From Asterochloris sp. CNOR1 (Eukaryota > Chlorophyta > Trebouxiophyceae > Trebouxiales > Trebouxiaceae): DNA of 64,000 nt. Location of the stretch: positions 2,170,001-2,234,000 of the forward strand of contig OZ017758.1 in assembly GCA_963969365.1 (NCBI GenBank). The letters run 5' to 3'. Positions 1 to 64,000 of this stretch are shown here, in pieces. The translations under genes and the position numbers were made by a program. Position 1 is the stretch's first letter; each line of letters opens with the position of its first letter. Below the pieces are notes generated by a model, which was not told the DNA's origin, ran no database searches, and saw only the letters and a program-made list of their open reading frames with translations.

Positions 1-3000
1 TGACAGCTGCCAAGCTCACCCTGTAGGGTCCGTCCACCTCAAACTCTATGGACATCTCGCTGCTGGTCTTGTAGATGCGCCGCTCCGCATCCACCAGGGT
101 CTCGTACTGGTCATTGGTGTTGTGCTCGGCCACCATCACGTTCAGCATCACGCAGGGGTAAGAGATCTTGAGGGGCTTGCCGTCTTTCTTGGTGAACTGC
201 AGGGCCATTTGCACTGGATCTGCCTTTTTCCACGAACAATATGTTGAGGGACAAGGGCAGTCTTGGCTGATGTGCTTTTGTGGCCTGCGTGTGTGAGCCA
301 CAGTTTGAGGATGAGCGCTGTGCAATGATGGCTGCCTGCCATGCAAAAAAGGCCTGATGGACCAAAACATGTAACAAGAGCCCTTCAGGGGCGGCCGTGC
401 CTCCTGAGACAGGAAGCACAGCATTGTCTCTCAGCTAATGATGCAAGCAGCACTTGCAGCACGCAGGGTAGCAAAGAGGAGCAGCTGAGCAGGTTTGCCT
501 GGGGTACAGCCATCTTTGTGGAGCTTTGCCTGCAAGGCAATGATGGGCACCACGTGCTGCAGGTAATCATTCAAGTCTGCTGCATGCCTTGAAGTTCTCC
601 GGGAAGCTGCCAGGCAGGGCACACCAGATGCCATCCGTGTCCAGCTCCAGGGGCATGCCCAGCTGCTCCACCAGCTTGTTGGCACGCTGCACATCAGGGC
701 AGGTGATCGTTAACTGCCAGGATCTGGCTGTGCTGCAGGGTGCAGCCCATCACAGGCGCTGGGATTTGGCCATTTGGTGACCCACTGTACAGTATGTTCA
801 TGTGGTGAGCCTCTGCCGCATGCAGTGTAGGCTGCAGTGCACATGCAACATTGAAAGCCCAAGCAGCTGCATGAGGTCATGCTCAGCAGGAGTGTTGAAT
901 TTCTTGGCCGCAGACCGCTCACCCTTCAGTCACATGTAAGGACCATTTGCAAGTCTGAACCCCCCTGACATAGGCACCTGTGAGGGTGACCATACATGCT
1001 TCAGGAGCATACAGGTACCAAAAGATGCAACCTTGCCATGCATCCCTGCTTTACCTGTATAATCTGGGCCCCAGTGTAGGTGACAACCCCAGCCATCTCC
1101 ATGCTGTACCAGCGCGCACCCCTGCGCATGACGTACCCATAGAAGCTATTCAGGATGCACTTGTGGGCCAGCTGCAAGCTGTCGTACAGGACCACCATGT
1201 CAGCTGCCTCCTGCACTGCCAATGGGTTGGCTGCGGCCTGCAGCAGAGAAGCAGGGAAGCTCTAGTTGCTCAAGATGATCGAGAGCTGCTGGCATGTAGG
1301 CTGCCTGCTGAAGACCCAGCATCAGTTGCAGGCTGCGCTACTTGATGGGCTGAATAGAAGCTGGGGAAGCGCGGGGATGGCACGGGCAGACACCCAGATC
1401 AATTTGCATGTTCACAGGACCTTGTCAAAGCCAGCCTAGGGTTGCTGGCTCACGTCAATGCCATGCCCAGCGCACGTACAACCTGCAGGTTGGCCTCGCA
1501 TCAGACCACGCCGACAATGTGCAGGTGGGCCTTGTAATTGTGCGATAGAATGCCAGGCACGGCAGCATAGAACTTCAAATCACCCCTCGCCAAGCCCAGG
1601 TCCTCCGACCTGCCCTACATGTCTTGATCATCTGCAGAACTTCTCTGGGCTGCTACCAGGCCTCGCCGTGTGACACAGCCATGCCAATAGGGCTGCTCAG
1701 CCCTTCACCAGGTCCTGATGCTTTGCCAAAACGCCTTTGAGCCGGCAGCTGCATGATGCACCTGCCCCCTGACACATCCACTACCCCTGCCAGTCTGCCC
1801 CCAGCCCTTGCTACGTCGCGCACTCACCCGTGCTTCATCCAGCTTTCCCTTCCACTTCTTGTTGAGCCCCTTGTACTCGTAGCGCCGGTCTCTGAAGGCC
1901 CGCACTGTGCCCACATAGAAGTCATTTTCCCGCATGCAGATGCCTGCCTCCCGTGTCTCACACACAGGCTTGTCCAGCACCCGCTTGTACACCTACAGGC
2001 AGTGAGGTGTGTACAGGTCAGATTTCTGCAGATCAAGGCACCTGAATCTTTCCAACACCCAATATTGCACCTGCGGTTTTTGAGGTAGCACAATGTCAGA
2101 GGTGTGCCGAGCATTGCACTTGAGACAGTCTGACACCCATCTGTGCACACAAGCTTGATGCAGCGTGCGATGCTACCACCACAGAACAAGAAGTTGCAAG
2201 CAAAGCCGCTGCTTGCCTTCTGGGTGTATTTCTTCAGCCTCTCCTTCAGCATCTTGGCCTGCTCCTCAGCTGGCAGGTCCGTGAAGAATCTGCAGAAGGA
2301 TATAAGAATTCTGCAAACGACAAATCGAATGGCAGCTGAGCAGTTACTGCTGTGCAGCAGGCTCAAACATTCCAATTCAGGTAAAGAGACGCCATGATGA
2401 AAATCCGCTCTGACCTTGCCACAGTCAAAGGGGCCAGCACGAACATGTCACCTGGCTGACGGACCAGGTCCAGTGTTAGTTTGCGGCCTGAGTGAACCCA
2501 GGCATGTCACCTGGCAGGCTCTTCGGGCCAAGACCCCACGCAAGGAGAAGTGCTTCAGGGCACAAAGACCCAGAGCAAGTTTAGCACCTCACCTGCCAGC
2601 CTGTCCAGGAGCAGCTGTCTGCCCGGACCATGCATGCAATCAGCAGCAAACAGAACAATTAAGCAAAATAGCGTACCTTGCACCTGGTCAGGGCCGGCAG
2701 AGGCCACTGAGTCCTTGGAGAGCTGGTGCTTGGCGATGCAGTGTGGTTGGCAGTACAGCGCCTCACCTGGCTGGCTGGTCAGGGGCAGCAGGTGCCACCA
2801 CCTCGCTAGCCAGCTGGTTCTTGATGCTGTTATACTCAGCCACATTGGAGGCGAAGTGCTCCCCCCGCCAGACCCAGTCCATCTTGCGCAGGCACGTCTT
2901 GCCCGGCCTGTTGAAGTCGCAGGCTGCACAATTCTCATCTGTGACAATGGCTGACGGCTGCAGCCTGCAAGTGCGCACTAACCCATTTGGAGGCTGCTGG

Positions 3001-6000: not shown

Positions 6001-9000
6001 CCTGTCCCCCGAAAACTTGTTGGCATGCTCACCTTCAGGCCTCTGCTGCCCTGGGGAAGGTATGAGTCACGGTTGACCCAGTGCATACAGTCCATGTGCA
6101 CAGCAAACCTGCAGCAGCAGCGGCTTGTTCAGCTGCAGCGACCCCAGCATGCAGGCAGGCAAAGGCCTGACGGGGGATGCACCTCACTCTGCCTGGAAGC
6201 ACCTCATCACTTTGCTGCCGTCCGGCCCATCGGCTCAGCACGACCCCCTGCTCAAGCCAGCTTGGTCTAGCCAGCTTGGTCTAGCCAGCCACCTAAAGCA
6301 GGACAGCACCCACCTGCTGAGGCAGCTGTTGTCCTTGGTCATGGCAAAGCCAATCTCCCGTGCCATGTCCATCCCGTGCTTGCTGGCACGCGTCTCTATG
6401 AAGGGCCAATCGAAGAAGTCGCCATTGTAAGTCACGTACAGTGCAGGCTTTGCCTGCAGGGAGGAAATCCTGGCTGAGCTGATCATAAGGACAGAGTCTT
6501 ATGTGAGTGTTGGTGGACAGAGCATCACGAAGCTACCAGCTGACCATGCTGCAGGGGCACTCTTGCCACACGCATGCTGATGCTGATTGAGCTGTGCAGC
6601 AGCCTAGATGAGAAGGACTTACTGCAAGAGGCAATCACTCTGCCTTTGGCTTGCAGTCACTGGATGAGGACGTGCACTTAACACGGCTGCCAAGCTCTGG
6701 CTCTGCCACAACGCCTCCCCAGCACAATGTCATGCTGAGACAGCAGCTGAAGGTCGAGCAGCTAAAAGGTAGTAAGGTGCTGCTGTGTAGCCCACCTCAC
6801 GCATGTGGTCAAACCAGCGACGCAGGACTGCCACCTCATTGGCCTCATTCCACACAATGAATGGCCCTGCACAGGACAGAGGCCTGTTTACCAGCATCCA
6901 CCACTATCACTGAGCCTCATATCAATCTTATGCTCTGCCACGGGCCCAGGACACCTACATGCTCCAAAACAGATTCACACAACCATAGAGGTGCATGAGG
7001 AGCCTTGCCAAACCCTCTATCATCAGCCTCTATCATCAACCTCAGACAGGCAGTGTCCACTGGATAGCAGGCCAGGCCCACCCTCGAATTCTGGCTTGGG
7101 CGTGTACTCAAAGTCCTCAATATCCAGCGAGACTACCTCCCTGTTGACGATGAGGTAGCCCTGCTTGTCCAGCATATATGAAATCATGAACACCTGTGGC
7201 CGCAGGGGGAGCCCTTTGATGTCAACACCAGGACATGCATGCAGCTTCTCTGGTGTGCAAGCCAGGCGCCGGCCAGGCAAACAACTGGCAGCAGGTGAGG
7301 TGGAGCTGTGTTGGCCTCAGTTTCGCTTGATGTGCGCTGCTGGAATGTACTCATGTTGCAGGCTAGGTGGAGGTCTAGCGAGCAGCTGGTGGCACTCCAG
7401 GCCGTCTTGCACTTGTAAAAGTCCATTTGTACATCTGAACGGTGCTTGTGAGGTAGACTGTGTATTGACCCCTGGGTGACAGAGCAATGCTACTGGGCAG
7501 GTGCTGAAAGTCAAGAGAGAGCACAGCAGCTCGGCACTGGCAAGACTGGCACTGGAAGGGAGCCGTGAGGAGCAGGTTGTGCTGCACTGGTTCCCACCTG
7601 ATCAAACTCTGCGTTGGGGAACTGCAGGGGCAGCTTGGTGGTCTCGATATCAAACGCGCAGATGCGGGGCTCAGCGCGCTGCAACAGATCTGTCCTCTGC
7701 TCCAGAGACACCTTGCCTCCCTTCAGGAAGCAAAGTGCACCTCAGCGAGCGCTAGCAGTCATTGTGTCTGACAATTTCTCACCATCCAGGATGAACCTCG
7801 CCCGGCTGGGAGCCAGGCAAGTTGTCAATGGCTGAGCGCATGCCTGGCAGAGCACTGCACATAGCAAGCCACCCCACTTTGACATGATGGCCAGCAGCAG
7901 CAGCCTGAGCATGATGTATTGCTGGCTGTCTGCTGGTTGTGCTGGACTTGGACTTGGGCCAAGCTCAGCTGTGCTCTGCAGAGGTCATGGTCTGGACTGT
8001 GACGGCGCAACAAGGGATGCAGTGTGTATGGTAATACCATATAAGCACTTGTCATGCAGCTGTGACTCACCAGGGCCTTCACTGTGAACCAGTGCCCGCA
8101 GCGGATGTTACAGTCTATGCAGAAGCGGATGTGGTAGGGCACATCGTACTCCCTCATGTCGACTATTGCCTCAACCGCATCCTGTACCGCAAGAGTCCCA
8201 GCGGCCTTGCAGCTACAGACAGGTTGGTCAGCAGCGATAGCACCTTGCACAGCGCAAAGGCATGGCCAGTCTTCCAGCTGTGGTGGGTGTCACAGGCTGG
8301 GGTGGCTGTGACAGGCTGCTCATTTGCCAAGAAGTGCATGGCCTGGACATGCTTGAGACAAAGACGAATGGCTGCTGTGCTCAGAGCACCGCGATGCAGG
8401 TGTGTTCCCCATGAGCTGGACGTCCTTCTGTGTGCAGGACTGCAGCATATGCCCACATGCCCTCAGTTCTGCAACGTCACACTGCTGAATACGCAGTGAC
8501 AGGCCTGCTGACCTGCATCCTGACTGTGCTGCTCAGCTCCTGCCGGGCAAAGGCAGCGTAGGCGTCAGTGGCGCTGCCCTTCCCCTTGTTGCGCTGCACA
8601 AGGGGCTGCACCTCCCGCTTCACATCCATCAGCTGCTGCACATTCCAGAAGCTGACACGTAGCAGCTTGCGCTTCAGGCCTGCCAGGTGGTTCTTCTGTA
8701 GGGCAGTGGACGGACTGGACTAAGAAGGCAGTGAAAGCCAGTCCCAGGCATCATCATCTGAACCATATTCCCCTGTGAGTGGCAGCAGCATGTGCTTTGG
8801 GCAAGCCAGGTTGGTGCCCTGCAGGGCATGACAGGGAGTGGTGGAAGAAGTGACATGGCCCCTGACAGCACTGCATCCCATGCCAGGAGGACCTTGTCTG
8901 CTGAGATGCTTCTTCAAGAGGCTCCCGACAGCTCTGCTGCACTTGAGCGGCTGCTACCATGTCCCCTGTGGCGGCGTACTTGTAGGCTATACGCTTGCTG

Positions 9001-11175
9001 GGCAAAGTGCTGTGCTTCTTCCCAGTCAGCACAGCAGCACACCAGGTGCAGCCACGTGCCCACAGAGGTTCACAGCGCCCATTTTGCTGGGCCCAGTGCT
9101 GTGCCGCTTCCTGGAAGCAGTGCAGCAGCAGACCAGGCGCAGCATCATGCACAACCTGAGGTGCCCATAACCACATCCAGGTTCATCACCAACCACTGCT
9201 CATATTCTGGCAACACACTGACAAAGGCTTGCCAGACAGCTGTGGATATCGTGTCGCCTGGCCACACTGGCACCAAGCATTTCCATTCTCACACCCAATA
9301 CCAAACATATGCTGCTGACTTGCAGCAATTTGCAAGGCTCCTGCACGGCCATGCTTCGCCACGGTGTACGGCCATTCCTGCAGAGCTTGACAGAGCCCGC
9401 TGTCCAGCTTCACCCACAGAGCTTCAAACAGCTCCTTACGAGTTCAAGGTTCTCCACCAGACCACCTCCATGTTGTGCAGATGCTGCTCACATTTTGTGC
9501 AAAAGCAGCCCAGGCACAGCAGCATAACACTTGAAGCTTCACAGCCTCCCTCGCCAGGTCCGGGTCCTCCACCAGACCTCCTCCATGTTCTGCAGATGGG
9601 CTTTGTAGTAGGCACAGCAGCATGCTTCACACAAACCCTTACCAGGTCCAGGTCCTCCCGCCAAACCACCTCAACATCCTGAAGGTTGGCCTCATACTTG
9701 CGCCGCAGGTACCCCTCCACCTCGCGCTCCATTTCGTCCTGCAGCAGCGCCGAAGCAGCAAACTGAGGGACCGAGGTCCAGCAAGGGAGCCACGTCTTTG
9801 CTGAGTCGCCCATGTATGCTGCACAGTGCCTGAAAAGGAGCTGACCTTGGCTGGCAATCAAACGCTCTCTCCATGTTGCCTTGCAGCGGCACCCAAGTCA
9901 TTTGTGATGTACAACGGCTATTACAATGTTAGCCTGGGGGCACACGCTGTCCAGCATTGCCCCTGAGCAGACAAACAGGGCAGACAGGGGTAGCAGCCGC
10001 TGTTGACCCTGTACCTAAACGACGGTCCTGTACAGCTGCAGAAGCCAACAGCCCCTGCAGCAGTCCGCTAATTCTTTGCCTTTTGGCTCCGTGCTGCCTT
10101 GTGCACCTGTACTGCAACCTGCGGGTAGCCCATGTGTTGCAGCCCACCTTGACTTGGAGGTAGAAGTAGGGGGCATAGGGGATCTGCGCCTTGAACATGG
10201 TCCCATCCTGCAGGCCAGGAGAGGGGTTGAGTGCAGCGCAGCTGCAGGTCCCTGACGCTGTGCACTGGCTGGCCGCACACGTGCACCTCAGACCTCCAAC
10301 AGGATGGGCTGGGAAGGTTTGTTAGCACAGGCAGTGCATGCCGGCAGCACCAACACAGCTGCTTGAGCCCCACCTGGCACATGAAGTAGCAGCTGACTGC
10401 ACTGAGCACCTGCCCGGACTCCTTGTCATCCAGTGAGGTCTGCAGAGGGCAACATCTCAAGCATGTTCTTATCCAGCTTCCCAGAGTAGCTTGACCACAG
10501 TGGAGCCAGGCAAGCTTGCTTCCAGGAAGGAGAGGGCAATGGCAAACAAGACCCAGAAGCAGGAACAGGAGGATGCCATTGGTATTTTAGCAGCAGGCCT
10601 CTTCTAGCTGGCTGGTTCCAGGTCTTGTGGGCATGCCAGCTGAGGCAGCGCTCCTGTCCAAACACACTTATAAGCATTGGTCCCTGCATTTCCCCTGCGG
10701 CTGTGTCTGGGGGGGCGACCCTCACTGTGACAACATTCATGAGCCACCCCAGCCGGTCCTCCCCCTCCTTGAACAGAGGGAAGCCCAGCTCAGCCTCCAG
10801 TGCATGGTCGTCTTCCTTGGCAGCCTGCAGAGCGCGTGACACAGTCTGCTCCTGTCTGGCCAGTGCTCAGCTTTGCCCACATGGGCACTGGCAGTGGGGC
10901 TAGAGACGAGCACCCAACAGCACAGGTGGCAGCTTAGGGCCTCTGCAGGCAGCATGCAGGTGGCACATGCTGTATCTGCCAGGTTTCTTTTGAAGCCCAC
11001 AAGCGGCTTCGCGCTGGCAGCATCCTGCTCTGTGACAGACCATTCAGTGCAGTGCTGGCAAACCTTGGTGAAGGAGCTGCTGCCACCATCTCCCCCATTC
11101 TCGCTTTTGTGCCCAAAGTAGTTGGCATTGAGGGGCTTCCGGCCACGGCCTCTGCCCCTGCCTCTTCCCCTGCAC
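1..11175 (-). CDS. POLE: DNA polymerase epsilon catalytic subunit, N-terminal two-fifths (3' end off window)
   Basis: Leading-strand replicative polymerase with 3'-5' proofreading, acting in the nucleus. About 23 exons read right to left. A Gly/Arg-rich N-terminal exon (about 11060-11175) is followed by [20 protein letters not shown] (about 10780), the B-family N-terminal domain ([10 protein letters not shown], about 10160) and [17 protein letters not shown] (about 8130). The exonuclease motifs are all present: Exo [11 protein letters not shown] (about 7660), Exo [14 protein letters not shown] (about 6420) and Exo III YSVSDA (about 5720). Polymerase motifs follow: [15 protein letters not shown] (about 3340); [15 protein letters not shown] (about 1150); [15 protein letters not shown] (about 630). 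The window edge cuts the gene just after [10 protein letters not shown], so thumb and C-terminal Zn/Fe-S region lie outside. All catalytic acidic residues I can check are intact. Two introns use GC donors (1993-2216 and 5154-5708). The initiator Met lies in an unresolved upstream exon. Plant and animal POLE give the same motif order, so family assignment is secure; exon edges are approximate. Confidence 0.97.
5661..5679. repeat. Poly-G tract of 19 bases in a POLE intron
   Basis: An uninterrupted G run (C on the coding strand) within the GC-AG intron 5154-5708, about 30 bp from its donor. Likely unstable and prone to assembly error; a shorter 11-base G run sits at about 23384-23394. Confidence 0.9.
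9430..9660 (-). repeat. Donor echoes of a POLE exon (about 98- and 115-bp spacing)
   Basis: A POLE exon ([15 protein letters not shown]) ends at 9653, GGACCTGGACCTG|GTAAGG. Copies continue downstream on the minus strand: CATCTGCAGAACATGGAGGA through GACCCGGACCTG|GCGAGG (boundary 9555), and CATCTGCACAACATGGAGGT through ACCTTGAACTC|GTAAGG (boundary 9440). The last copy keeps a perfect GTAAGG donor. Flanking tracts such as GCATGCTGCTGTGCCTACTA / GTTATGCTGCTGTGCCTGGG are also shared. Confidence 0.85.
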
Positions 11176-13550: not shown

Positions 13551-16500
13551 CTACACTGTGAAACGGGCCTGCTGTTTCTGTCTCTGCTTCCTGTGGGCCT
13601 TGGCTGCCAGCTCAACTGCCATGTGAGATGGTGACTCAGGACGCAGACTTCTCTCCATAATCAGCTCTCCAGCCTGCTGCATGCTGGCCTCGCTTGACTC
13701 CTGTGTCGAACGCGTGGGACGCCCTAGCAGCCCGAGGATGCTGCTCAGCCTGGAGGGGGAGTCCTCAGGCAGTGCCTGGCTTGAGGCAGGATAAAACATC
13801 TCAGGCTGGCAGGGGCCACTGGCTGCCCCGTCATCCCCTGCTGTGGTGCTGGGCAGCGAGGCCAGGCTGGCAGCATCATCGTCGTCCTGCAAGCCCCCTT
13901 CGAGGTCGTCGTTTGGAGGAGGCAGGCCTTTCAGAAGGTGATCCATGCGCCGCGCCTGCAGGTCACACTTGAGCAGGAGGTGGGGAGGCACTGTGGGTGT
14001 TTGTTTGACTTGCAGCGCCCTCGAGTAGCAGAGCAGCCAGAAAGGAAACCCTTGTCACTGAAGTGGTGAGGGAGGTCATGTCTGAAACTCCTTTGGGCGA
14101 GTGCACCATGTGCAGGCCATTTCAGCAGGCTGACGCTGTGCTGCAGAGCAGAGCGGCCAAGAAGGGGAGCTGCAAATGCTGCAGCGGGGCAGGAGATCCT
14201 GATTTCAGGAGGTCATAGTTTCTGTCGGTTCTAACTGCAGAGGATGCAGCCTATCTAACATGTAAGCCTGTCCAATCTGTAGAGGGTTGCACCTATGTAT
14301 GCAAAGAGAAAGCCATGCAAGAACAGCAGCAGTGTGTGAGCAGGGCACTGTGGCTAAGAGAGGCATCATGGCAACTTCTGCAAAAGCAGCAGTGCTTCAG
14401 CAAGGGTGGCTGCTTGCAAATGCAGCTTGCGGTCCACCTCTCACCTCTGAAAGGAGCTCTGGCAGCTCATCTACATTCAGCAGCAGGGAAGGGGACTCGT
14501 ACAGCCCCTCTGCCTCCTCCTCTGCCTCGGCTGCCTGCTGCACAGGGGCCATGGCCTGCACCAGCAATGTGCATCTCTCACAGCCACCGGCGGGATGAGC
14601 CTCTCTGCACTATATAACATGGTGAACTACCGGCTGGGTGGACCTCACTCGGCCATCTGCGCGGTAGATCTCTCTGAGCCATCAGGAGCGGTGACTCTCA
14701 GAGGGATGAACCTTTCTCAGTCACCAGCTTGGGCAAACCCTTGTCAGCTATTCAGCAGGCTGGACTCTGTGCAAAGCATCAGTGGAGCAAGTTTTGTCTG
14801 GCACCAACACCGTGAACTGGTCTCAGCCACTACCAGGGGCTACATCTTTTAGCCACCAATGGAGCAGATGAATGTAAGCCACCAGCAGGGCATATATGCT
14901 CCAGCCACGACCATTGAGCTCTATTGAGTTGCTGCTGGACGATGCACTCAGGTCTGCCACACGTCTCCAAAATTGCAATATGGCCATGGCCAGCAGCATA
15001 GTGCAAGACTCTTGGAAGATGGCAAATGTGAAGCACACCACTCTTTCACACTGCGAGATACCAGTTAAAGCAGGGGGTGCTGCCACCAGGCCAGGCAGAG
15101 TGGTCCCTCAGGCAAGCATCAGGGCTGCAGGACAGGCGACCCTGTACCTTGTCGTGCTTGTCCAGGTCAGCAGCCCCGCGTAGCGAGAGGACCTTCTGCG
15201 GCTTATCAAAGATGCCAACGGCTGCCTGCCGGAACAGCACTGTCAGGAAGAGCAGCGGCACCAGCAGTCCAGCCTGAACAGCGCACAGGCACAGATAGTT
15301 CGCTGCAGGACAACGCTAGAGCAGCGGGCCAGTGTGGTAAAGGCAGGATGAAAGCCTGCCGTGGTGCCTGACATACCACTGAGCACATCTCTGGGGCAGA
15401 TGCAGGGATGCTGCCCCCTTTGAGTCATTTGCTAGCAAACTCAAGTGAATTGTACCCACATAGCTGACCTGAATGGGAGCAGTCTTCAGGCTACAGAGTC
15501 CAATCATCAAGAGCTGGAAGATGAGCATGGACACAATGACCTGCTCAAAGACCTGGCGCCACACCTGCACAGCAAAGCCCACCCAGCGTTGGTGCCAATG
15601 TAGGGTGGGGCTTTGCCACGGCAAATATGTGCATGGAGCAGCACAGGCTTGAACAAGTGGCATGTACGTCTGGGCAAGAGACGCTGCAAAGGGCAATCAA
15701 GCACACATCTGCACACTGCGCACACCTTGCCACCCGTCTGATACTTCTCTGAGAAGACGTACACGAGCTGGTACTTGCCGATTAATGTGCTGCAGAAACA
15801 ACACAAGTGCGACTGATTTCACCAATCAGCTTCGGATGCATCACCTGCCCAGTGGGCAGTGCTGGGCGTCAGCACCATCACAGGTGATGCATCTATGCTG
15901 TGTGGGCGTTCCCAGGTGTTGCATGAGCCAGGTTCTCACCAGACGAGGAAGTAGAGGAGGCAGATGGGAGTGATGAGAGGCGCCACAATGCAGAATGCAA
16001 GGCCCAGCAGGATGGTGAAGGTGTGGTCGGGGATCTGCAGGGCAGCACAGCTGCAATGTCAGCATGCAGGACATGCAGTGCAGGCAGTCTGTTGAGACAG
16101 CAGCGCAGCCTGCATCCAGCCTGCTGCAGTCATATGTGAGTACACTGCTTCACATCCGGCAATGCCACATAGAGCTCTGCATGCAATGAGAGCAGACGCA
16201 CCTAAGGAGATGCACTGGCCCTAAACAGTCTGCTCCAAGTGCTGTCTGTTGGTGCTGAGCTTGCTGCTCCAGGAGTGCCCTCTTGCAGATAGTGCACCCG
16301 CCTCTGTGTTGCAAGGCACGAACTACTCCACCGACAGGCTCTGCTTGGCCCTGCTGCTGCAGCTGGTGACTGCTCAGGCTCGGCACATGCGCATCCCCTT
16401 GCACGCTTCTTGATCACCTCTGTTCGGCAGACCATGTCCTGCTCCCCCAACAGGCACTGCCTGGCCCTGTTGCTGAAAGCTCACAAGCCTGAAAACAACT

Positions 16501-19500
16501 TCATCTCCTTCCCTACCTCTGTGCCGTAGTCCATGTCCTGCTCCTCCCACAGGCGCTGCTTGGCACGGGCAGTGGTCGCGATGGCGCTGCGGAAGTAGTA
16601 GATGGCCAGGCCAACCAGGCGCAGGAATGCCCAGGGCTTAGTGGACAGGGCCTGCACAGCAGGCACACAGAGTGAGGCATGTGGGGGTATGAATCCCAAA
16701 CCCTTGATCCGGGGTGCTTCCACCCATCAACTTCCAGGTTGAGCCCTGAGAATCCCAGGCTTGGGACACCCAGGCCTGAATAAAACCCTGAGGCATGTGT
16801 GAGTGCGCAACTGGCTTGGTTTCCTGCGAACTTAGTGCTGACCCCAGCATCAGGCAGCTGTCATGGAGCAGCGTAGATGCTGTCTGTCAAACATCAGGTG
16901 TTGAGTCGCATTGCATGATGGCAGAGGTCGAGGGTCTTCTGCCAGGGCAAGGAACATGGCGTCTTGTGATGTCGTGGGGAGCTTGCAGCTCCTGCATGGT
17001 GCTCACCAGGAGGAGGACATATGTCATGAAGAAGACTGCAGGCACAAGCACAACGTGGTCAGCTTGCTTGAAAAGCTGAGTTTGCAGATGAGCCAGGTGA
17101 CATAGCTGTGCAGTGGCATTGGGATGTCCACATGGCTCTTGAGTGGTGCCGCTGCAACTTCTCTTGGGGCTCACCTGCTGTCTGCGGAGCGGCGTTACCC
17201 AGCACCTGGACAATGCTGCTGGGGTCCTGGATGATCTGCTGCACCTGGTTGAGCAGGCTGCCGGCAATGAAGTTGCCGAAAAAGCAGACCAGAACCTGAA
17301 AAATGAAGAACTTTCTGACCTGCATCAGCATGCAGCACTTGCTGAGAGTCCACCTGGTAAAGCAGTGGCTCAGCGGCTGTGCCCCTGTTTGCAAGCACTC
17401 TGCACGGTGCTTATCAGGTATGTGGGCCATGTCCATACGAGCCGCTTGCCTTGCCCCTAGATAAGACGCCCAGGGGGCCCAAAGTAACGCTGCAGGAGCT
17501 AGTGGCCCTCCCTGATGTGCTGACATGCACAATGTCCTGTGCCAAGCCCATGATATGCAGCGGCACCTTGTGACCGGCACCCTGCCTTGAAGCTGATCAT
17601 GCTTCTGGACCACCACAAGGAACTTACTTGGAATTGCAGCACCCCAAGTACAACCTCATCACCCCACATGCAAGCTGCCACGGTGTTGACTGCCCAGTTG
17701 CAACCCAGGAGTTGATGCTGCCACACTTGGTGAGATGAGACGCTGCCAGATTGCTTGCAGCTGCCACTTCACAGGCCCACAGCCCATACAATCAAGCACG
17801 ACCCAGCTGCCCAACTGCTGTGGGCTCCCAGTCTCAGGTGCATTGGTGCTGCGCCACTGCCAGGCGCTCACCAATTTGCCGAAGCAGAAACGACCCAAAC
17901 CCAGTGCGGCCCCTATAACAGCCTCACTCACCACGCCAAACTCAATGCTGCTGGTGCTGACCATACCCTGGACCTTGTTCATGAAGGTCAGCAGCGTGGG
18001 GAGGAGGGCCAGGAAGACACGCAGAATCAGAGAGGGCAGGAAGGAGGTCAGCAGCCCATTGATGACGGGGAGGTTGATGATGCTGCGGATGAAGGGGACG
18101 TGCTCCAGCTTGTTGACCTGCACGGAGGGCAGTGCACCAGGGTGTGCACTGCGCTGGCGGAGTATGGACTACACGCAAGCATGTGTTGCAAAACAGTGGC
18201 CTGCAGCTACTTCATGGGAGCATGCCCCAGCTTGGGGACCTGCAGAAGCCAGCATGCCGGAACTGAACAGGATGCCTGAACAGGACGCCTGTGAGGTGGC
18301 ATCCTGGGGGGTTATGGGCAGCAGCAAGCGTGCCGCACGTTCTGCAGAGTTTATCCCTTAGCTGCAGCTGGTCTCCTAGCAGCATGTTGTTTCAATCAAA
18401 TATCACTTGCCAACAGATACTTTTGAAGTTTGAGCTCCAGCCTGGGAATCAGGAGCAGCAGGTCAAAAACACGCTACAGTGGAGGTTTGCCAAAGACTGG
18501 ACCTCAGGGCCAGTGCAGAGGCAGCACATCTGGGGTCATTTCCTGTGTGACCAGAGTCGACCTCACCGTATCTGTCTGCAGGCCTTGGGTGCAGCAAGCC
18601 ACATGCTGCTGCGTTCTGTGCTCACAAAGAGAACTTCTGTGATGCAGCTTGAAGCCTGGCAGGAAAGACAGCAAGTCACTCTGCCCCGTGGACAGGCAGC
18701 GACCAAGGGGGAGCAATCCCTGGGCAGCTTGCCTGTATGAGGGACTGCACGGCTGAGATGGGAATGAGGTAGAACAGCGCCAGGGTGAAAAACGCCCCCC
18801 AGACTGCAAAGGACCGCAGCTTCCGCTCCCACCGCCGCCAGCTGCAGCAGGCACGGCCTCAGCAAAGGCTGCCAAGGAACAGCACTGGCTAGTACATGGG
18901 AGCACAATGCACTGCATCTCACATCTGGCAGCCCTGAACTGGATGAACACATAGGAGTGGGCCAAGGACAGAGGCTTCTAAAAGGGCCACGACAGCTGCA
19001 AGCACCAGTATGGAGCACTTCAGCAGGGGTGTCAGCCCGCCTGCCCAGCTGCATCTGGGGCAAACAGCTTGCAACGGCCTCCATGCAGAGAGCATACCTG
19101 ACATTGGGCCAGAACACCTCCTCATACTGAGGCGCTTCGCGGACAGTCCAGGCCTGGAGATCATGGTGCAGCATGGAGGTGGCTGCAATCACCTGCGACC
19201 GCCGCGACCTGCAGGCGAGGCACCTGGCTTTCAGGGCACTCACATCCCCTGAGCCATTGGGAACCTGTCCTGATGCTGAGGCTGCAACTCCTTGTTCCCA
19301 GGCCCCTGTCTGCTGCATGTTACACATCCAGAGTTGGCCTGCATGGTGGAGGCTGCAGGCACATGCCAGCACAGGCCCTGGCGCTCTGGGACATACGACG
19401 TAGGCGCATGTCTGGCACAGCAGCAGACGTGCGCAGCTACTGCACCCTGACATGCTGGACAGCATGCTGCACCAGAGTGCAGGCCTTGCCATCCTGGGCA

Positions 19501-44000: not shown

Positions 44001-47000
44001 TGCGCAGCCCAGCTCACGAGCTGGCAGCAACAGGGAAAACGGCACTGCTGCGGGGCGGCCGCAGAGCCCCTCAGTGCCGCCGCTCGGCGCGGGGCCAGAC
44101 CCTGGAGGGTTGTTCAGTGTGGCGGACAAGCTGGTGGTGCGTCTGGCCAAGCAACTGGACAGGGGAGCGGTGCCTGCAGCTGTCGGCGCTGGGGAGCACC
44201 CCGGGCAGGGCAGCGGGGAGCTGGAGAGAGGGTCTGAAGCTGGCGTCGCTGCCGACACGGTGCAGGTGAGTCTGTGCCTGCTCAAGGATTGCCTGCGGAC
44301 ATAAACGGCAGCAGGCCTCCCTTGCTGTTGGGCAGCTGCCGTCATGGTAGCTGCAGCCTTGTGTGTTGCATTCAGTGCACCTGTGCAGTCGGCACTACCG
44401 GGAGGAGCCGCCGTCTCTGTTGGTCCCCTGCGGCAGCTTGCGACTGCTTTTGCACTGTAGTTAGACTACGCACTGTCAATTATTTGGCATCTGATTTTTA
44501 TAGTCTGGTGTTGCGGTGGAACAGACCACACTCCTCATTCTGGCTGTGCAGGTGCCGCTCACCGTTGGCTCGCCCCTCATGTCGGCTGTGCTAGGATTCT
44601 TGACCCCAGAGGGAGAGCAGGATGCTTGCAATGCTCAGACCTCACGGAGTGCCTGGGGCCACCTCCAGCACAGCATTGAAGCTGGCACCATGACTGGCTT
44701 CCAGCTGGCAGCAGCTGCGGGGCCGCTGTGTGACGAGCCCCTGTGGGGTGCTGCCTTTGAGGTATGAGTCCCCCAGCAGGCTAGAAAATGATCTCTGTTT
44801 TGCAGTGGATGAGCACAATGGGGCGTTGCCCCTGAGGTGTGGATGGGACAACAGGCTGGGAGATGATTCCTGTGTCACTGATGTTTGAGCCTCTATGGGG
44901 TGTTGCCTTTGAGATGTGAATCCTCCAAAAGGCTGGAGGGAACGTTTTCGCTTGCTGTGAGGCAAAGCCCTGTGGGTCACATGTTAGCTATGGTTCAGGA
45001 TAGCTCACAGGCTCAGGGCTGCTGCCGGCATGAGGCACAGCTCTATGCAACAGGCCAACAAGCTCCAAAATAAGGAGGCAGTTGCTGTCTGATGCTGCTC
45101 TCTGCAGTGAATGGCGCAGGTGGTGCCTTTCTGTGCAGCCCGCACAGGCTGACAGCATGCACAGGCCAGACTTGGATTGAGCCTGCTCATGCACCTGGCT
45201 CAACAACATGCTGTCCTTGCAGCTGTGCAGAGTGGCAACTGTCTGACACTCCTGCCCTGCAGGTGGAGGCCTGCCTGAACCTACAAGAGGGCTACCAGCC
45301 TGGCGCAGTGTCAGCGACTGCCCTGGCTGAGGATGTGTATGGCCCCTTCTCAGGGCAGGTCACCTCTGCAGCGCGGCAGGCCTTCAGGCGAGCCATCCTG
45401 GAAGCCGGGCCCCGCCTGGTGGAGGCCATGTTCCTGTGCGAGATCGCGACGGCCTCTGAAGCACTGTCAGGTGGGCACTTATCTGCTTACTTCGACGCTG
45501 ATGCAGAGGCCGTCTGCAAAACGGGCTGCCTTCGCTGCCTTCATGCTGGGGCAAGGACCGGGTGTAAGGCAGGCTGCCTGTCTGCCTTCATGTTGGGGCA
45601 AGGACCGTGTAAGGCAGGCTGCAGAAACTGCAGTCCCATGTGTGGGCATGCGGACCTATCAGCATTCTGCAAGGCAAGCGCGGGTTCAGAGGGACTGCGG
45701 GTGTACTTGGCTTGCTTGTGGGGTCGACCTGCTGCACTCACCATGCTTGACAGTGGGGAGGAGGTAGCGGCATTTTAGTCCTGTGGCAAAAAGACTTTGA
45801 CCACGGCAGTCGTCTTGTCCGAGGAATATGAAAGTGCTGTCAAATGGAGTGCCGGCATGTGCTTCCAGTCTGCGTCTGCTGAGATTCAAAGGCACAACTG
45901 CTGAACCTTGAAAGGGCTGGCTGCAGGGGTGTACGCGACGCTGAGCAAGCGGCGGGCACGGGTGCTGCGGGAGGAGATGCGGGAGGGCAGCGACCTCTTC
46001 AGCATCCACGCCTACCTTCCCGCACAGGTCAGCTGTCATCCATTGCTGGTTGGCTGCTTGAGAGTGCATCCACCTTCTTGCAATATGCACTGCTTGCGCA
46101 GTCACCCTTATCGCTTCTGCGCGGCGCTGGCAAAGTCAGCTTGCTGGCACACTTATGACCCTTTCTGCTGTCATCCACATTCCATGCATGACATCCCATG
46201 GCAACAGTGCCTTCCTCGTATGCCTGACATTGCATGCCTACTTGCGCTGCCTATACCACACACACATGCCTAACATTGTATGCCTACAGTTGCTGCCTGA
46301 CATAGCACCTGCCTGCCAGCAGCAGCAAGCTGCACCTACTCATTGACTCAGGGCCGCTTGCCTGTAGCTGTGCCACATCAGGTGCAGAAGAGGTGCAGGC
46401 AGAGGCTGCGACAGCACCTGTCTGACCATGCAGGCCTCCTTCGGTTTTGCCACCGACCTGCGGCGGCAGTCCGCTGGAGCAGCGTCCGCATCCCTGATGC
46501 TGTCCCACTGGGAGCGCCTGCAGGTGGGTGCAGCACCAGCCACCGCTTACAGGCTGGCCTCAGTGCCGGGCATCCTGCCATCCAGCCCCGACGTCACAGC
46601 TGCACTCAGCCCAGCCTGTGCCTCATTCGTGCTTCAATGTGGCCCTTGAGCGCATTGGTGCAGGGCTGGCGGGGGCAGGTGATCCTCCTGTGGGCCCGCC
46701 CCCCCTTGGCCCAGCTGCAGGCAGCCAGCACTGTCTTACATGCTGCTCAAGTGCTGCAGCTATAAGACTTTCAGCTGCCCCCACTGGCCCAAGAGTGTTC
46801 CTCACTGCCCAGCTGCTTGGCTGCAGGTGGACCCCTTCTTTGTGCCGACCACGGAGGAGGAGCGCGAAGAGTTCGGGGAGGAGGGACAGGGGGTGGGCAC
46901 TCGCAACCTCGCCCGCGCCCTCATTGACGAGGTCCGGCAGCGCAAGGGCCTCAGCACTGAGCGCAAGGTGGGTCTTGCCCACCAAGAACAAAGCCATGGG

Positions 47001-47678
47001 GAAGGGGGAGGAGGGGGGTCAGCACAGAGCGCGAGGTGGATGCTGCCTGTGAGGACTGACATACAGGACCTTAGGTGGAACGTTCTAAGCGCGGACCTTG
47101 ACGATGCGGGCTCAGCACCGAGTGCAGGGTGGGGCCCTGTCTGGGAAGGGCCCAGCACCCTGCACTGGGGTCTTGCCCACGTGGGCCTCAGCACCAAGTA
47201 CAAGATGACTCTTGCCTGTGAGGGCTCCAGCATGCGGCGCAACATGGGATTTTGTCCCAAGAGGCCGTACGGCGTTGCATGTGTGGCCCCTGCGATGCCA
47301 TCAAACAGCGACGGCAGGCAAGGCCGGTTCTTGCCGGACATATGAGTGCACCCCCACAGGGCTGCGTTGCAGTGACGGCTGCGGCAGCTCGCTTCCTGTG
47401 GAATCTGGCAGTGTATGGAGCGGTGTACTGTGCCATGTGCTGAAGGAAGCCCCTGAAGTGGTCCTGCTGCTGTGGCATCAGCGTCCTCACCTGGGAGCAG
47501 TGCTTGGTGCAGATGCAGGGTCATCAGCATTGCATTCCCTGCAGCTCTGCTTGACTCTGCATGCACAGCAGCGTGCCTTGCCGCAGGGCTGCAGGGGATC
47601 ATTGTGAGCCTGCTGGATTGCTGCCTGCAGGTTGTGGAGGCTGCAACCAAGCAGAGAACACGGGCCAGAAAGGTGTAG
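38036..47678 (+). CDS. EFL1: Elongation factor-like GTPase 1 (60S subunit maturation)
   Basis: Cytoplasmic EF-2-like GTPase that, with SBDS, releases the anti-association factor eIF6 from nascent 60S subunits. Twenty-one exons (38036-38080, 38204-38347, 38602-38713, 38937-39097, 39645-39850, 40057-40222, 40472-40570, 40747-40848, 40986-41195, 41457-41566, 41827-41983, 42179-42340, 42556-42703, 43044-43189, 43405-44265, 44552-44761, 45263-45470, 45927-46027, 46434-46523, 46827-46967, 47631-47678) sum to 3,627 nt, an exact 1,208 aa frame. G domain: [39 protein letters not shown] and LVINKIDRL. Then [20 protein letters not shown] (domain II), [75 protein letters not shown] and [17 protein letters not shown] near the C-terminus. 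Exon 15 carries long Ala/Gly/Gln/Ser-rich insertions (within 43525-43850 and about 44000-44220). Introns 3 and 7 have GC donors. At least six splice junctions have tandem echoes. Confidence 0.98.
38806..38990 (+). repeat. Acceptor echo upstream of EFL1 exon 4
   Basis: The segment from 38909 (GACACAGCCTGTTCCCCTCC, acceptor, then exon encoding YLINLIDSP) has a diverged copy starting at 38806, 103 bp upstream: GACACAGCCTGTCAACCCCT, then ACCTGATAAATCTCATCAAC and TCCCC. The copy has lost its AG at the splice point and contains in-frame stops, so it is a relic, but exon sequence is plainly included. Confidence 0.8.
39075..39460 (+). repeat. Donor echoes downstream of EFL1 exon 4
   Basis: Exon 4 ends at 39097 (TGGGAGGAGAAG|GTATGCCTGGGCACAC). 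A copy with boundary at 39159 reads CAAGGAGGAA|GTGCATGCTGGGGCACGC. A third near 39432 reads GCCAGGAGGCAG followed by ACGTGCTTGCTGGGGCACAC. The first copy keeps a GT. Confidence 0.75.
41172..41291 (+). repeat. 40-bp triplicate across EFL1 exon 9 donor
   Basis: Three near-identical 40-bp units start at 41172, 41212 and 41252: GAGCTGCCCGCAGATGTGCA, then GCAG/GCGG/GCAG, then GTTGGCCCTG or GCTGGCTCTG. Exon 9 ends within the first unit at 41195 (VQQ|GTTGGC). The second unit repeats exon tail and donor (AGCGG|GTTGGC), and the third has GC in place of GT. Confidence 0.92.
41530..41615 (+). repeat. 40-bp duplicate across EFL1 exon 10 donor
   Basis: Exon 10 ends CTGCCGTGGCTCTCCCAAG|GTGAGT at 41566. 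Exactly 40 bp later the sequence reads CTGCCGAGGCTTTCCCAAG|GTGGCG (boundary 41606). The copy retains a GT donor and could act as an alternative 5' splice site. Confidence 0.88.
44730..44945 (+). repeat. About 75-bp triplicate across EFL1 exon 16 donor
   Basis: Exon 16 ends CTGTGGGGTGCTGCCTTTGAG|GTATGAGTCC at 44761. Copies with boundaries at 44836 (GGGGCGTTGCCCCTGAG|GTGTGG) and 44913 (TATGGGGTGTTGCCTTTGAG|ATGTGAATCC) follow. Downstream AGGCTAGAAAATGAT, AGGCTGGGAGATGAT and AGGCTGGAGGG also align, so both exon and intron sequence are repeated. Confidence 0.88.
45505..45625 (+). repeat. Intronic minisatellite in EFL1 intron 17
   Basis: Units of about 45-48 bp contain GGGCTGCCTTCGCTGCCTTC / AGGCTGCCTGTCTGCCTTCA, then TG(C/T)TGGGGCAAGGACCG and GTGTAAGGCAGGCTGC. 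There are two full copies and one partial. I see no clear relation to a splice site. Confidence 0.75.
46945..47250 (+). repeat. Multiple echoes of EFL1 exon 20 end and donor
   Basis: Exon 20 ends CTCAGCACTGAGCGCAAG|GTGGGTCTTGCC at 46967. Related strings recur with boundaries near 47035 (GTCAGCACAGAGCGCGAG|GT), 47127 (CTCAGCACCGAGTGCAG|GGTGGG), 47204 (CTCAGCACCAAGTACAAG|AT) and 47243 (TCCAGCATGCGGCGCAAC|AT). The post-boundary CTTGCCTGTGAG-like tract recurs too. Two copies keep GT at or next to the boundary. Confidence 0.8.
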
Positions 47679-52600: not shown

Positions 52601-54235
52601 TCAAGGTGGGGTGTGCACTTTGCCTGAGATGCTACCTCGCACTCAGCGTGGACTATCATGTCGACTCTGCCAGCAGAAGCTTCAGCTCTGGACGCATTTC
52701 AAGGCGTCGCAAGGTGCTCGGCCCGCAGCGTTGTATGTTCGGAGGCACAATATTGAACCAGTGTGCAGAGCCCCTGGCGTGGGCTGCCCAGCGTCCAGAT
52801 GCCCCAGCAAGCAGGACAAAAGCATGCAGCAGTATGTCTGGCAATACCAAGATTGTGAGACGGGTGCCTGCCAGGCAGACTGAGGTATGAAGCTCCTATG
52901 AAGCTCCTACTGCTCAGGCCCTGCCTTCTCAAGCTGCTGGATGCCACGGTGCAGGTGTGGAATCTGGAGACCCTGCAGCGCATGAAGACGCTCACAGGCC
53001 ACACCGACGCTGTGCGTGCCCTGGCAGTGGCAGATAACCGCCTATTCAGCGGGAGCTATGATGGGACAGTCAAGGTCTGGGACACAGACGAGCTGACCTG
53101 CCTCCAAACCCTCTCAGGGCACACTGGTCCCGTCAGGACGCTGGTTTACTCAGGTGAACACTGACCAGGGGTGGCAGCAGCAGCGCTGGCTTGCAGGCTT
53201 GTAGGAGCGCCCTGGGGAACAGGGTTCCCTCAGAGGGTAGGGACAGTTAGCATGTCCCTGCACGTGGTGTCCTGGAGGCCTTCAATAGCAAAAAGCTTCT
53301 TCATGGTTGCTGCATCCTGCTTGCCTGCAGCAAGGGCTCTGACATTGCTGAAGGCCTTTGCCGGGACCATTTGCATGTGCTTCTACGGCACCTGCCACTG
53401 TGCACTCCTTCACAGAAGAGCGTGAAAGCTGCCCTGGGCGTCAAGTCAGGCCTAATCACCACAGCAGATTGTGATTGCTGCTGTCCTGGGTGCCCCTGTC
53501 CCCTCTCTGTGAGTGGTTGTGCACAGGACAGCTGCTCTCTGCCTCGTTCTCTTGGCATCTGAAATGGGCTGTCACAACTGCTATTGCTTGCAGGCGGCCA
53601 CATGTTCAGCGGCAGCTATGACAAGTCGGTGCGGGTGTGGGATGTGCACAGCCTGCAGTGCCTCAGCACGCTGCAGGGCCACAGCGGCGCTGTGCGGGCC
53701 CTGGCTGCCAGCAGCAAGCGCGTCTTTAGCGGCTCTGATGACACCACCATCAAGGTGGGCCTGCTTGATGATGCACATGGGGGCATGTCTAGCGGAAGCT
53801 GCAGGACAGCGTGTGTGGGGAACCCTCTGAGCATGATCCTGGAGTGTTGCTGTTCCTGGCCTGCAGGTGTGGGACTCAGAAAACTTGCAGTGCCTCAAGA
53901 CACTGGAGGGGCATGAGGACAACGTGCGCGTGCTGGCCGTCGGGGAGCGCTATGTGTTCAGCGGCAGCTGGGACAAGACCATTCGGGTGTGGGACATAGA
54001 CACCCTTGAGTGCGTGAAGGTGCTGGAGGGGCATGGGGAGGCGGTGCTGGCCCTGGCTGTAGGCGATGGGTTTCTGGTCTCAGGCTCGTACGACACAACC
54101 GTCCGCTTCTGGGACCTCACCACGCTACGCTGTGTCCGCAAGTGTGAGGGGCACGATGACGCTGTCAGGGTTCTGGCGGTGGCAGCTGGCAAGGTCTTCT
54201 CAGGGTCCTATGATGGCACCATAGGCGTGTGGTGA
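49653..54235 (+). CDS. U-box and WD40-repeat protein, probable E3 ubiquitin ligase
   Basis: Nine exons (49653-49837, 49974-50070, 50534-50677, 51319-51441, 52196-52306, 52519-52605, 52955-53153, 53594-53754, 53867-54235) join in phase to 491 aa from the first in-frame Met. The frame is open a little further upstream, so an earlier exon may exist. N-terminal part: MKHIKQLLQNRSN then a Gln-rich linker. The U-box (about residues 75-142) shows FYCPISMELMADP, VMVATGHTYDRVCIERWLQ and NRTCPVTGMRL, and is split by an intron inside its first loop. A short spacer (EWAANNAVSMPQ, LLYKWEEE) leads to eight WD40 repeats, ADKTIRVWD through SYDGTIGVW, ending at the stop. U-boxes recruit E2 enzymes and WD40 propellers bind substrate. 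The domain order resembles PRP19, but the spacer is far too short for the PRP19 coiled coil, so this is probably not the splicing factor. Substrate unknown. Confidence 0.95.
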
Positions 54236-54479: not shown

Positions 54480-55128
54480 TCAACTAGGATCCTTTGACTG
54501 TAAGCCTTGATCTGCAACCCACAAGCTGGCGCCCTTCTGCAGCAGCTTCTGTGTGTCCTCATCAGCTTGTGATACTTTGGCCTCAAAGTTGCGCAGCTGG
54601 GAGTCAAGGCTGCAGTAGGCACACATTCATGCTAAAGAAATTCGGGACTGATTGCACATGAATGCATGTGTGCAAGAAAGGGGCATCATGCAGACAAGGC
54701 ACCTGTCCAGATTATGGGCCAGCTGCAGCTCGTCCTGTGCCTGCCCACTTGGTGTGCTGCGGCCTAGCTGAGCCTGTCTCTGCTGTTCAGTCACTTGTGC
54801 AAGGGCAGCAATCTGTTGACGCAGAACGTCAACCTGAGCGCGGGCTGCCTCATCTGTGCCACCTTGCTGGGACTCCAGCTGCAGCATATGGTAGGACTGG
54901 GCTGGGCACTGAAGAGCTTGAGAGCTGCTGCCAGCACTCACCTCTTGGCAGCACTCCTCCAGCCATTGCAGTAGTTGGCTCGAGTCTCCCAGGCCTTCCA
55001 TCAGCGCAGAGCACCCCAGCTGCCTCTGCTCTGATGGCAATGGTGTGGTTTAGTCCAAAGTTGCATTGAGATATCCAAAAGCCTGGGTCAACAACCCCGA
55101 GGGCTTCTGCCAGGCGTCCCAGCCTCAT
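54480..55128 (-). CDS. Small coiled-coil protein, possibly augmin subunit 3-like
   Basis: Short gene in the opposite direction between two plus-strand genes. From the ATG at 55128 it reads MRLGRLAEALGVVDPGF, then (after an unresolved splice) CSALMEGLGDSSQLLQWLEE ending at a GTGAGT donor near 54940. Next come a coiled-coil exon (about 54900-54700: AQVDVLRQQIAALAQVTEQQ) and a last exon (54615-54480: LDSQLRNFEAKVSQADEDTQ). The pattern of an N-terminal LxxxLG helix, a LLxWLxxxC helix and then coiled coil resembles the start of HAUS3/AUG3, a subunit of the augmin complex that nucleates microtubules from microtubules. The match is short and the protein (under 200 aa) is much smaller than HAUS3, so either the family call is wrong or this is a reduced form. 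An open frame upstream to 55296 overlaps the first flavodoxin exon antisense and is probably not used. Confidence 0.4.
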
Positions 55129-55212
55129 GGTCTCCACACACAGCAATGCAGTTGTGCCATTTACCTCTACTCCGCCCCTCACTGAGCTCGTCACAGCTCT
55201 GCAATGGCGATC
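55129..55212. promoter_or_regulatory. 84-bp divergent promoter region, coiled-coil gene / flavodoxin
   Basis: Only 84 bp lie between the two opposed start codons. If both starts are right, core promoter elements must overlap the 5' ends of the genes. No TATA box is evident. Confidence 0.35.
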
Positions 55213-56608
<1,396 letters not shown>

Positions 56609-56795
56609 ATTGCTACTGAACTAATGTAGCGATGGCGAAGCCCACTCCCGGACTGTACACAAGCATGGCCCAAATGGCGACCAGTCAACAGGATGCATCT
56701 TTGACCCCCAACGGTATACTAGCCGCTGCGCAGCAAGCTTGCATGTCAGGCACCATCAGGAGCTGCTCCGGGCTGTGATCGGTCATTGCATTGCC

Positions 56796-62700: not shown

Positions 62701-64000
62701 CGCTGAGGACGAGGGCGCAGCTGTGGCAGCGCTGCTGGAGCAGCACAGCGCTCTGCGCAGCATCCTGGGGGCGCGCCTGTCGCACCTGCAGGTGGTGCGG
62801 GGCTTCTGGGCCAGGGGGGACCTGCGGGGGGCCTGCGCAGCCCTGCAGCGGGCCTCAGGTGAGAGCACAGCAAGGGTCATGCAGAGTTGACAGGATACAT
62901 GCCCAGGTAAGTTGCTGCAGGGGGGTAAGATGACAGGGGGGAGGGGGGCAGGGACTGGATGCAGCCCTGCTAACGTTGAGACACAATGCCAGCAGCTGCC
63001 ACTGCAGGCTGCCAGGCATCACTGCTCAGGCTGTTGTCATGCCAGCATGCCTCCCACACACAGTACAATGTATGCAGCAATGCTTTATTCGATGTCGAGC
63101 GCATCTCTGAGCAGCAAGGATCTTTGTCTGGGCACAGCAGCCTGCTCAGGCTGACAAGCAGGATGTCAGACCAGTCCCACTTTGTCCGAAGGAATTGCAG
63201 AGCGCCAGCCGGGGAGGACTTGCTGCTGCAAGATGCGCTGCGTGGACGTGGGATGCGAGTGGAGCAGTTGCTTGCTGCGCCACGCACAGCCGATGCGCCT
63301 CCAGTGGCTGTGCAAACGTCTTTTTGACTGTAAAGTGCCAGAGCATGGCCTGCTGCTGACATTTGATGGCTGTGCAGATGTGTTGGTAACTGTGCACTGA
63401 CTCAACGTGACCTTCTGCTGACATGCAATGGCTGTGCAGATGCGTCGGTGCCTGAGGATTGGCCGAGCATGGCCTACTGCTGACACGCAATGGCTGTGCA
63501 GATGTGTCTATGACTGTGGACTGGCTCAGCATGGCCTGCTGCTGACATGCGACAGCTGTGCAGATGCATCAGTGACTGTGGACTGGCTCAGCGTGGCCTG
63601 CCGGCGGCCAGAGGCCTTCAAGCTGGAGGCCTGCTCAGAGGTGGTGCCTCTTCTGGAGCCCCTGTTGGGCAGCCCGCACGACAAGTATGTCCTCGTGGCT
63701 CTAGGGGCGCTGCAGATGTTGCTGCAGGCGTTTGGTCAGGTAGGCTGCCTCCTGCACCGCAGTCCATTGCTTAGCTTTGGGCGGCTGGCGCTATCGGCTG
63801 TCGGGCAGGCAGTGATGCCTGTGCTCAGCTGGCCTTGTGTCTTTGGTGGCTTGTCGCCATGTTTTAGGCTGCTCCTGACAGATTAATGTGCTCATTGTGG
63901 CCATGGGCTGATGCAGCTAGCAGCTGTATGTCTGGGCAGGGGGCCAGCAGGCTAGATTGTGAGAGCATGGTAGCATGCTTGGTGCTCTGCCAATGTCAGC
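56796..64000 (+). CDS. KTN80: Katanin p80 regulatory subunit (3' end off window)
   Basis: WD40 subunit that targets the p60 AAA ATPase to microtubules for severing. The ATG at 56796 opens [20 protein letters not shown], matching the plant N-terminus. WD40 exons: 56796-56948, 57227-57344, 57703-57803, 58144-58269, 58752-58932, 59223-59347 and 59699-59840. Signatures include [89 protein letters not shown] and [13 protein letters not shown] long Ser/Pro/Gln-rich linker follows (about 60036-61740, several exons). The C-terminal con80 domain that binds p60 begins near 62680 ([20 protein letters not shown]) and continues in the exon 63564-63739 ([32 protein letters not shown]). The remaining exons are beyond the edge. 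The intron 59348-59698 has a GC donor. The junction 62858/63564 is phase-consistent and falls inside a 62-bp tandem repeat. Confidence 0.97.
58597..58631. repeat. Perfect 11-bp inverted repeat with 13-base loop
   Basis: GGCCTGTCGAG (58597-58607) pairs exactly with CTCGACAGGCC (58621-58631). It lies in a katanin p80 intron and could form a hairpin in the transcript. No gene or transposon boundary is evident around it. Confidence 0.85.
63305..63614 (+). repeat. 62-bp tandem repeat carrying the katanin p80 3' splice site
   Basis: Five units with exact 62-bp spacing. The splice-site trinucleotide sits at 63313-63315 (CAA), 63375-63377, 63437-63439, 63499-63501 and 63561-63563 (all CAG). Each unit has GGCTGTGCAG or a near variant, then a tract like ATGTGTCTATGACTGTGGAC, then GGCCTGCTGCTGACA or a near variant. 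The fifth unit is the one used: its exon start gives [12 protein letters not shown], continuing the con80 domain. At least the unit immediately upstream hits an in-frame TGA at its GCCTGCTGCTGA. Confidence 0.93.

Follow-up and report, generated by a model that had tools for sequence, protein, structure and literature searches.

Diverged tandem copies of exon edges in the introns of a green alga point to recurrent small duplication, probably tolerated where it does little harm

Why does the edge of an exon, together with its splice site, reappear in diverged form inside the adjoining intron, and why at one junction after another? The question is raised by a stretch of 64,000 nucleotides from the green alga Asterochloris sp. 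CNOR1 (GenBank assembly GCA_963969365.1, contig OZ017758.1, here C13, positions 2,170,001 to 2,234,000 of the forward strand), hereafter the window. An earlier note, made from the sequence alone, named 11 exon-intron junctions with such copies, here called echoes, in the POLE, OSCA and EFL1 genes, a putative katanin gene and another gene at 32736-37736 on the minus strand. The explanation that we favor, and consider fairly probable, is a general process of small tandem duplication that is tolerated within introns and across junctions, with the exonic copy kept by selection.

The DNA analyzed, 314 kb in all, consists of the window (C13:2170001-2234000), the 200 kb directly upstream and 50 kb of contig C1, and the genome searched for copies comprises 56.38 Mb in 21 contigs. 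The gene models are ab initio predictions from a gene finder written and trained for this analysis and include 728 introns with a median length of about 230 bp; one intron longer than 1500 bp was excluded from the counts, leaving 727, and 358 of the 728 (85 in the window, 66 on C1) are classed as good by coding score, site score and length. The identities of EFL1, POLE and OSCA are backed by matches to solved structures. A duplication was called when gapped self-alignment of an intron with 80-bp flanks gave a match at a distance of 20-400 with a score of at least 18; this procedure was preferred to ungapped self-matching, which overlooks diverged copies. In the window and the neighboring DNA, which is 58% GC, acceptor sites are strongly of the form TGCAG/G and donor sites resemble AG/GTGAG (the slash marks the junction).

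All 11 named junctions indeed have the exon edge repeated at least once, in diverged form, within the adjoining intron, and at each of these the exon end and the intron start (or the reverse) belong to a single aligned unit. The control consisted of 400 random segments taken from the whole set of predicted introns, those of the same gene included; 10 of the 11 junctions outscore it with p <= 0.01 in one or both of two window types. The POLE boundary, placed by the earlier note at 9653, has to be moved, the last exon base being 9643. At the EFL1 exon 4 acceptor, the ab initio model is wrong (38986), and the random-segment p values, 0.015 and 0.97, apply to that position; when the exon starts from 38937, the encoded residues agree with the human EFL1 alignment and the echo aligns through the corrected junction with a score of 26. 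For EFL1 exon 10, the window covering the exon part gives p 0.0025 and the full window p 0.70, the aligned unit holding 3 intron bases only. An acceptor echo in POLE, near 8783-8850, is a further case outside the list of the note, and the POLE intron at 8696-9642 carries both donor echoes and an acceptor echo. The junctions and their echoes are as follows.

9405-9643, minus strand: POLE donor, last exon base 9643, intron 9642-8696; echoes at about 9620-9512 and 9483-9405 (self-alignments)
8695-8850, minus strand: POLE acceptor of the same intron (9642-8696), first exon base 8695; echo at about 8850-8783 (score 25-27)
16301-16564, minus strand: OSCA donor, last exon base 16517; two echoes, at about 16465-16416 and about 16346-16301 (self-alignment, random control)
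35141-35652, minus strand: donor 35580 of the gene at 32736-37736; echoes at about 35524-35477, 35337-35286 and 35181-35141, the last weaker (score 18)
36199-36619, minus strand: acceptor of the same gene, first exon base 36248; upstream echoes at about 36326-36372, 36440-36461 (weak) and 36545-36617
38833-38990, plus strand: EFL1 exon 4 acceptor, first exon base 38937; in the echo, some 103 bp upstream, the AG is gone
39029-39476, plus strand: EFL1 exon 4 donor, 39097/39098; echo 39368-39476 (76 of 111 columns; p 0.007 and 0.002)
41169-41298, plus strand: EFL1 exon 9 donor, 41195/41196; 40-bp unit in about 3.2 copies, spanning the junction (TRF, self-match 92%)
41537-41609, plus strand: EFL1 exon 10 donor, 41566/41567; echo 41577-41609, period 40
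44735-44937, plus strand: EFL1 exon 16 donor, 44761/44762; echoes at about 44819-44873 and about 44887-44937
46946-47262, plus strand: EFL1 exon 20 donor, 46967/46968; up to 5 diverged echoes with scores of 20, 20, 18, 15 and 14
63302-63601, plus strand: acceptor of the putative katanin gene (katanin p80 in the earlier note), first exon base 63564; 62-bp unit repeated about 4 times, the last copy entering the exon

The identities of the copies range from about 62% to 100%, in agreement with the claim that they have decayed to different degrees and hence differ in age. Another pair outside the list, 53603-53707 and 53955-54059, consists of 105-bp copies that are 73% alike and lie 352 bp apart; judging from the appearance of the predicted protein, they may represent a coding unit that recurs within a gene of the WD40 type.

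Local direct duplications are far more common than expected by chance: they are present in 135 of the 727 introns with flanks, to be compared with 5 of 727 in simulated sequence of equal composition, and these 135 introns account for 211 self-matches with a score of at least 18. At equal score, the local repeats comprise 228 direct and 25 inverted pairs, compared to 7 direct and 0 inverted in the random control before the removal of duplicates. The matches are also specific to the intron concerned: at a score of at least 17, donor windows match their own intron in 18 of 329 cases and other introns in 1 of 329, and for acceptor windows, the respective counts are 16 and 1 of 329. Introns with a duplication make up 28 of 154 in the window, 95 of 458 in the upstream part of C13 (123 of 612 for C13 in total) and 12 of 115 on C1; the lower share on C1 makes the genome-wide rate uncertain. 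The proposal that duplication lengthens introns holds to the extent that recurrent local duplication adds intron sequence and leaves extra GT and AG sites. The proportion of duplication-bearing introns climbs from 0.08 among those of 120-200 bp to 0.46 among those of 450-1500 bp, but longer introns give more room for duplications and the shortest class (45-120 bp) is also high, at 0.15, perhaps owing to false introns called within repeats, so no conclusion on intron length is drawn.

The pattern of survival of these duplications suggests how the echoes could come about. Small direct duplications with periods of about 20-400 bp would arise frequently, anywhere in genes, perhaps via replication slippage or short-range template switching. 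Those inside exons would survive mainly when the period is divisible by three, whereas those within introns or across an exon-intron boundary would be harmless, in the latter case because an unchanged mRNA would result if splicing continued at the original site on the intron edge. After a boundary-crossing event, the function of the exon would hold one copy in place and the intronic copy would decay freely, so that the echo of the exon edge would still be recognizable. Two features of the data point to such selection. The period is divisible by 3 in 14 of the 18 pairs contained in exons and in 66 of the 210 other pairs (Fisher p 1.5e-4), and in 20 paired junctions, the exon side of the unit has decayed more slowly than the intron side (identity 0.77 versus 0.68; Wilcoxon p 0.019). 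Duplication is not confined to junctions: the best match is wholly intronic in 20 of the 51 introns of the well-supported set, and duplications occur inside exons as well. Abutting or overlapping copies (gap <= 10) make up 12 of the 17 pairs with an identity of at least 0.85 and 93 of the 228 pairs overall.

One locus outside the window bears on how the copies are made. At C13:2120536-2120748 (-49464 to -49252 relative to the window, in a minus-strand gene), an 89-bp direct duplication, identical at 89 of 89 positions, includes a predicted acceptor; a 38-base inverted copy of the end of the unit lies between the direct copies, and palindromes, identified by eye, are found at both turns. Template switching leaves this kind of direct-inverted-direct signature, and DNA replication was thus the probable setting of at least one recent event. 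As a general mechanism, an inverted piece between the copies was considered and rejected: it is found in 4 of 101 spaced pairs (score >= 16), with 0.3 expected, and two of the four belong to one cluster. A separate region of C13, from -45600 to -44600 relative to the window, consists of overlapping direct and inverted repeats and holds 11 of the 25 inverted repeats of the 314 kb.

The strongest competitor of a general duplication process is one with a preference of its own for splice junctions, which might stem from their CAG/TGCAG-rich sequence, for instance, or from DNA damage linked to transcription or splicing. Several results favor such a preference or weigh against the explanation by general duplication and exon protection. 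In matched windows from the same introns (the tests were restricted to long introns, 133-389 of which were used), junction windows match more often than interior windows of equal size, the comparison that the earlier note had proposed, with a ratio of 1.65-2.74, or 1.65-3.44 if the match must span the junction; at half-width 40, target 120 and score 16, the ratio is 2.6 (confidence interval, CI, 1.54-4.53), and at half-width 30, target 100 and score 15, it is 2.2 (CI 1.26-3.68). When the best duplication of each good intron is slid along the intron, straddling is observed in 31 of 51 cases versus 17.8 expected (p 1e-4), with 23 of 34 versus 12.1 under tighter coding cuts and 9 of 15 versus 5.0 (p 0.03) under the strictest cut; at score 20, the corresponding counts are 23 of 40 versus 14.8 and 17 of 26 versus 10.1. 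Shifting along the contig yields 90 straddling pairs versus 74.8 expected for all 228 pairs and all predicted junctions (p 0.037), and for the 194 introns of a stricter set, 29 versus 13.5 for all pairs (p 0.002) and 16 versus 7.6 for one pair per cluster (p 0.008). Furthermore, straddling pairs overall are no more alike than internal ones (0.719 for 46 matches versus 0.745 for 32), a lack of higher identity that exon protection alone would not predict.

Simulation of uniform duplication accounts for part of this excess. The matched-window ratio is 0.89-0.92 without exon protection and 1.19-1.32 with it, 0.99-1.46 when large deletions are included, and 0.75-1.30 in pooled simulations in which genes were re-predicted on the altered sequence, whereas the simulated sliding test gives 0.91-1.00 and 0.86-1.06. 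The observed excess is greater than in the pooled simulations with exon protection in both the matched-window and the sliding tests, and planted uniform duplications followed by re-prediction yield no comparable pooled excess. Single replicates of the re-prediction simulation, however, range from 0.54 to 1.75, the upper value being reached near the real sample size, and the exon part of the planted units was limited to 60 bp, which lowers the ratio.

Other results speak against a preference for junctions. When one pair is taken per cluster (130 pairs), the contig shift test over all predicted junctions gives 44 versus 42.1 (p 0.42), and straddling pairs with the other copy noncoding number 35, compared to 37.2 expected. 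For the 358 good introns, the test gives 35 versus 24.2 for all pairs (p 0.054) and 19 versus 13.6 per cluster (p 0.07), and the strictest coding cut of the sliding test at score 20 leaves 6 of 11 versus 4.3 (p 0.23). The CI of the matched-window ratio excludes 1 in 23 of the 28 settings and includes it in the remaining 5, uncorrected for the number of settings, and the ab initio gene models contain some errors at echoes. The claim that duplication favors splice junctions is a weak one: junction windows do exceed interior windows, but exon protection explains part of this, and the shift test over all predicted junctions shows no excess with one pair per cluster. At better-supported junctions, the excess is near two-fold (1.4-2.1 times per cluster in the shift tests), and exon protection accounts for part of it; the remainder may reflect a true bias, chance or imperfect gene models. 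We consider it unlikely, although worth keeping in mind, that the duplication process itself prefers junctions, and similarly doubtful that such a preference, arising through transcription, splicing or the CAG-rich junction sequence, would be a main route of intron lengthening and of the acquisition of spare splice sites.

A second alternative is that the splice sites of the echoes are kept because they are used, in alternative or recursive splicing or as decoys. The junction dinucleotide is kept in 22 of the 35 best echoes, as GT in 8 of 14 donor echoes and as AG in 14 of 21 acceptor echoes, above the background of 0.495 (1355 of 2735 other dinucleotides in the same matches). This excess is small, however, and the matches were selected for including the junction; the intron side of the echoes decays (0.68), and the site has been lost in several echoes, including the second OSCA copy (GC) and the EFL1 exon 4 acceptor. 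The retention of splice sites is compatible with neutrality, and from these sequence patterns, use of the echo sites would seem very improbable.

Still less likely, in our estimate, is that echoes are steps of intron gain, in which both splice sites come from an exonic AGGT that has been duplicated. In potato, a boundary-crossing duplication is reported to have created a new intron (PMC4974935), and in 13 of the 727 introns examined here, a donor-side copy matches an acceptor-side copy if register is not required. In register, however, such similarity is found in 1 of 702 introns at a score of at least 14 (control mean 0.15), with 1 versus 1.1 at a score of at least 12 and 8 versus 5.9 at a score of at least 10. 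The lone case, in the 3' region of POLE (C13, -12801 to -12420 relative to the window), resembled a recent gain but was rejected: acceptor echoes of a conserved exon have apparently been called there as an exon and an intron. The human POLE alignment (weak but collinear) leaves no room for the upstream "exon", which on inspection by eye reads as an array of echoes. Four of the 13 donor-acceptor matches were examined (POLE 9590, POLE -12801, OSCA 16357 and 35336 in the gene at 32736-37736), and each time the intervening "exon" is echo-like, which for POLE 9590 is strongly backed by protein comparison. The suggestion of the earlier note that these duplications could give rise to new introns is largely refuted for the introns analyzed here.

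The same miscalls affect the predicted proteins. The human POLE alignment skips 36 predicted residues between 9643 and 8695, which derive from two false exons, one of them an echo, and in the predicted protein of the gene at 32736-37736, a QIIDGELEDETER-like peptide recurs as a result of echoes having been taken for exons. Given that ab initio prediction calls an echo an exon in POLE, and apparently does so again at the POLE 3' end, automatic annotation may introduce false exons into the gene sets of such genomes.

Finally, an origin of the copies from a dispersed element (introners or other mobile DNA), or from assembly or gene-model artefacts, can be set aside as highly implausible. The region at about -45500 to -44600 outside the window, rich in direct and inverted repeats, speaks for it; against it, 4 of 4 echo regions queried against the 56-Mb genome match only themselves, with no similar sequence in other genes (the match counts are lower bounds), and hence are not mobile introns, the copies differ from one another and hence are not assembly duplicates, and the EFL1, POLE and OSCA gene models rest on protein homology.

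For the most part, then, the echoes look like ordinary copying errors, which build up where they are harmless. As such, they provide a gene-by-gene record of intron growth in a compact algal genome, in which the exon copy, being constrained, stands for the original sequence and changes in the free intronic copy can be read against it. Intronic minisatellites, which consist of head-to-tail copies, resemble the echoes in this arrangement, with several units at 41169-41298 and 63302-63601, but differ in that here there are often two to four diverged copies and the unit is partly common to a coding exon. In six relatives of Chlamydomonas, introns are similarly long, with medians of 198-343 bp, and their length is unexplained (PMC8226300).

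Short-range template switching (PMC7954356) may be compared with the single locus outside the window that shows direct-inverted-direct copies between palindromes, but few of the local repeats analyzed here are inverted (25, versus 228 direct). In Drosophila, tandem duplication has been discussed as a source of new introns (PMC2891723); those cases likewise involve small within-gene tandem duplications with AG/GT sites, but intron gain of this type is expected to leave in-register likeness between donor and acceptor, which the introns analyzed here do not show. Frequent within-gene duplications, some with whole introns, were described by Gao and Lynch 2009, as cited in PMC4974935, and they are frequent in this alga too. 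The closest parallel is the potato RdRp gene (PMC4974935), where a tandem duplicate extends over an intron-exon boundary and exonic sequence ends up intronic, as it does here; that single case made a new intron, whereas here many junctions in many genes are involved, the copies are variably diverged and new introns were not found. The open-licence literature matches listed, judged from titles and the starts of abstracts, contain no description of recurrent junction echoes across a genome. Boundary-crossing tandem duplication is already known from single cases, and the new aspect is its recurrence over many junctions.

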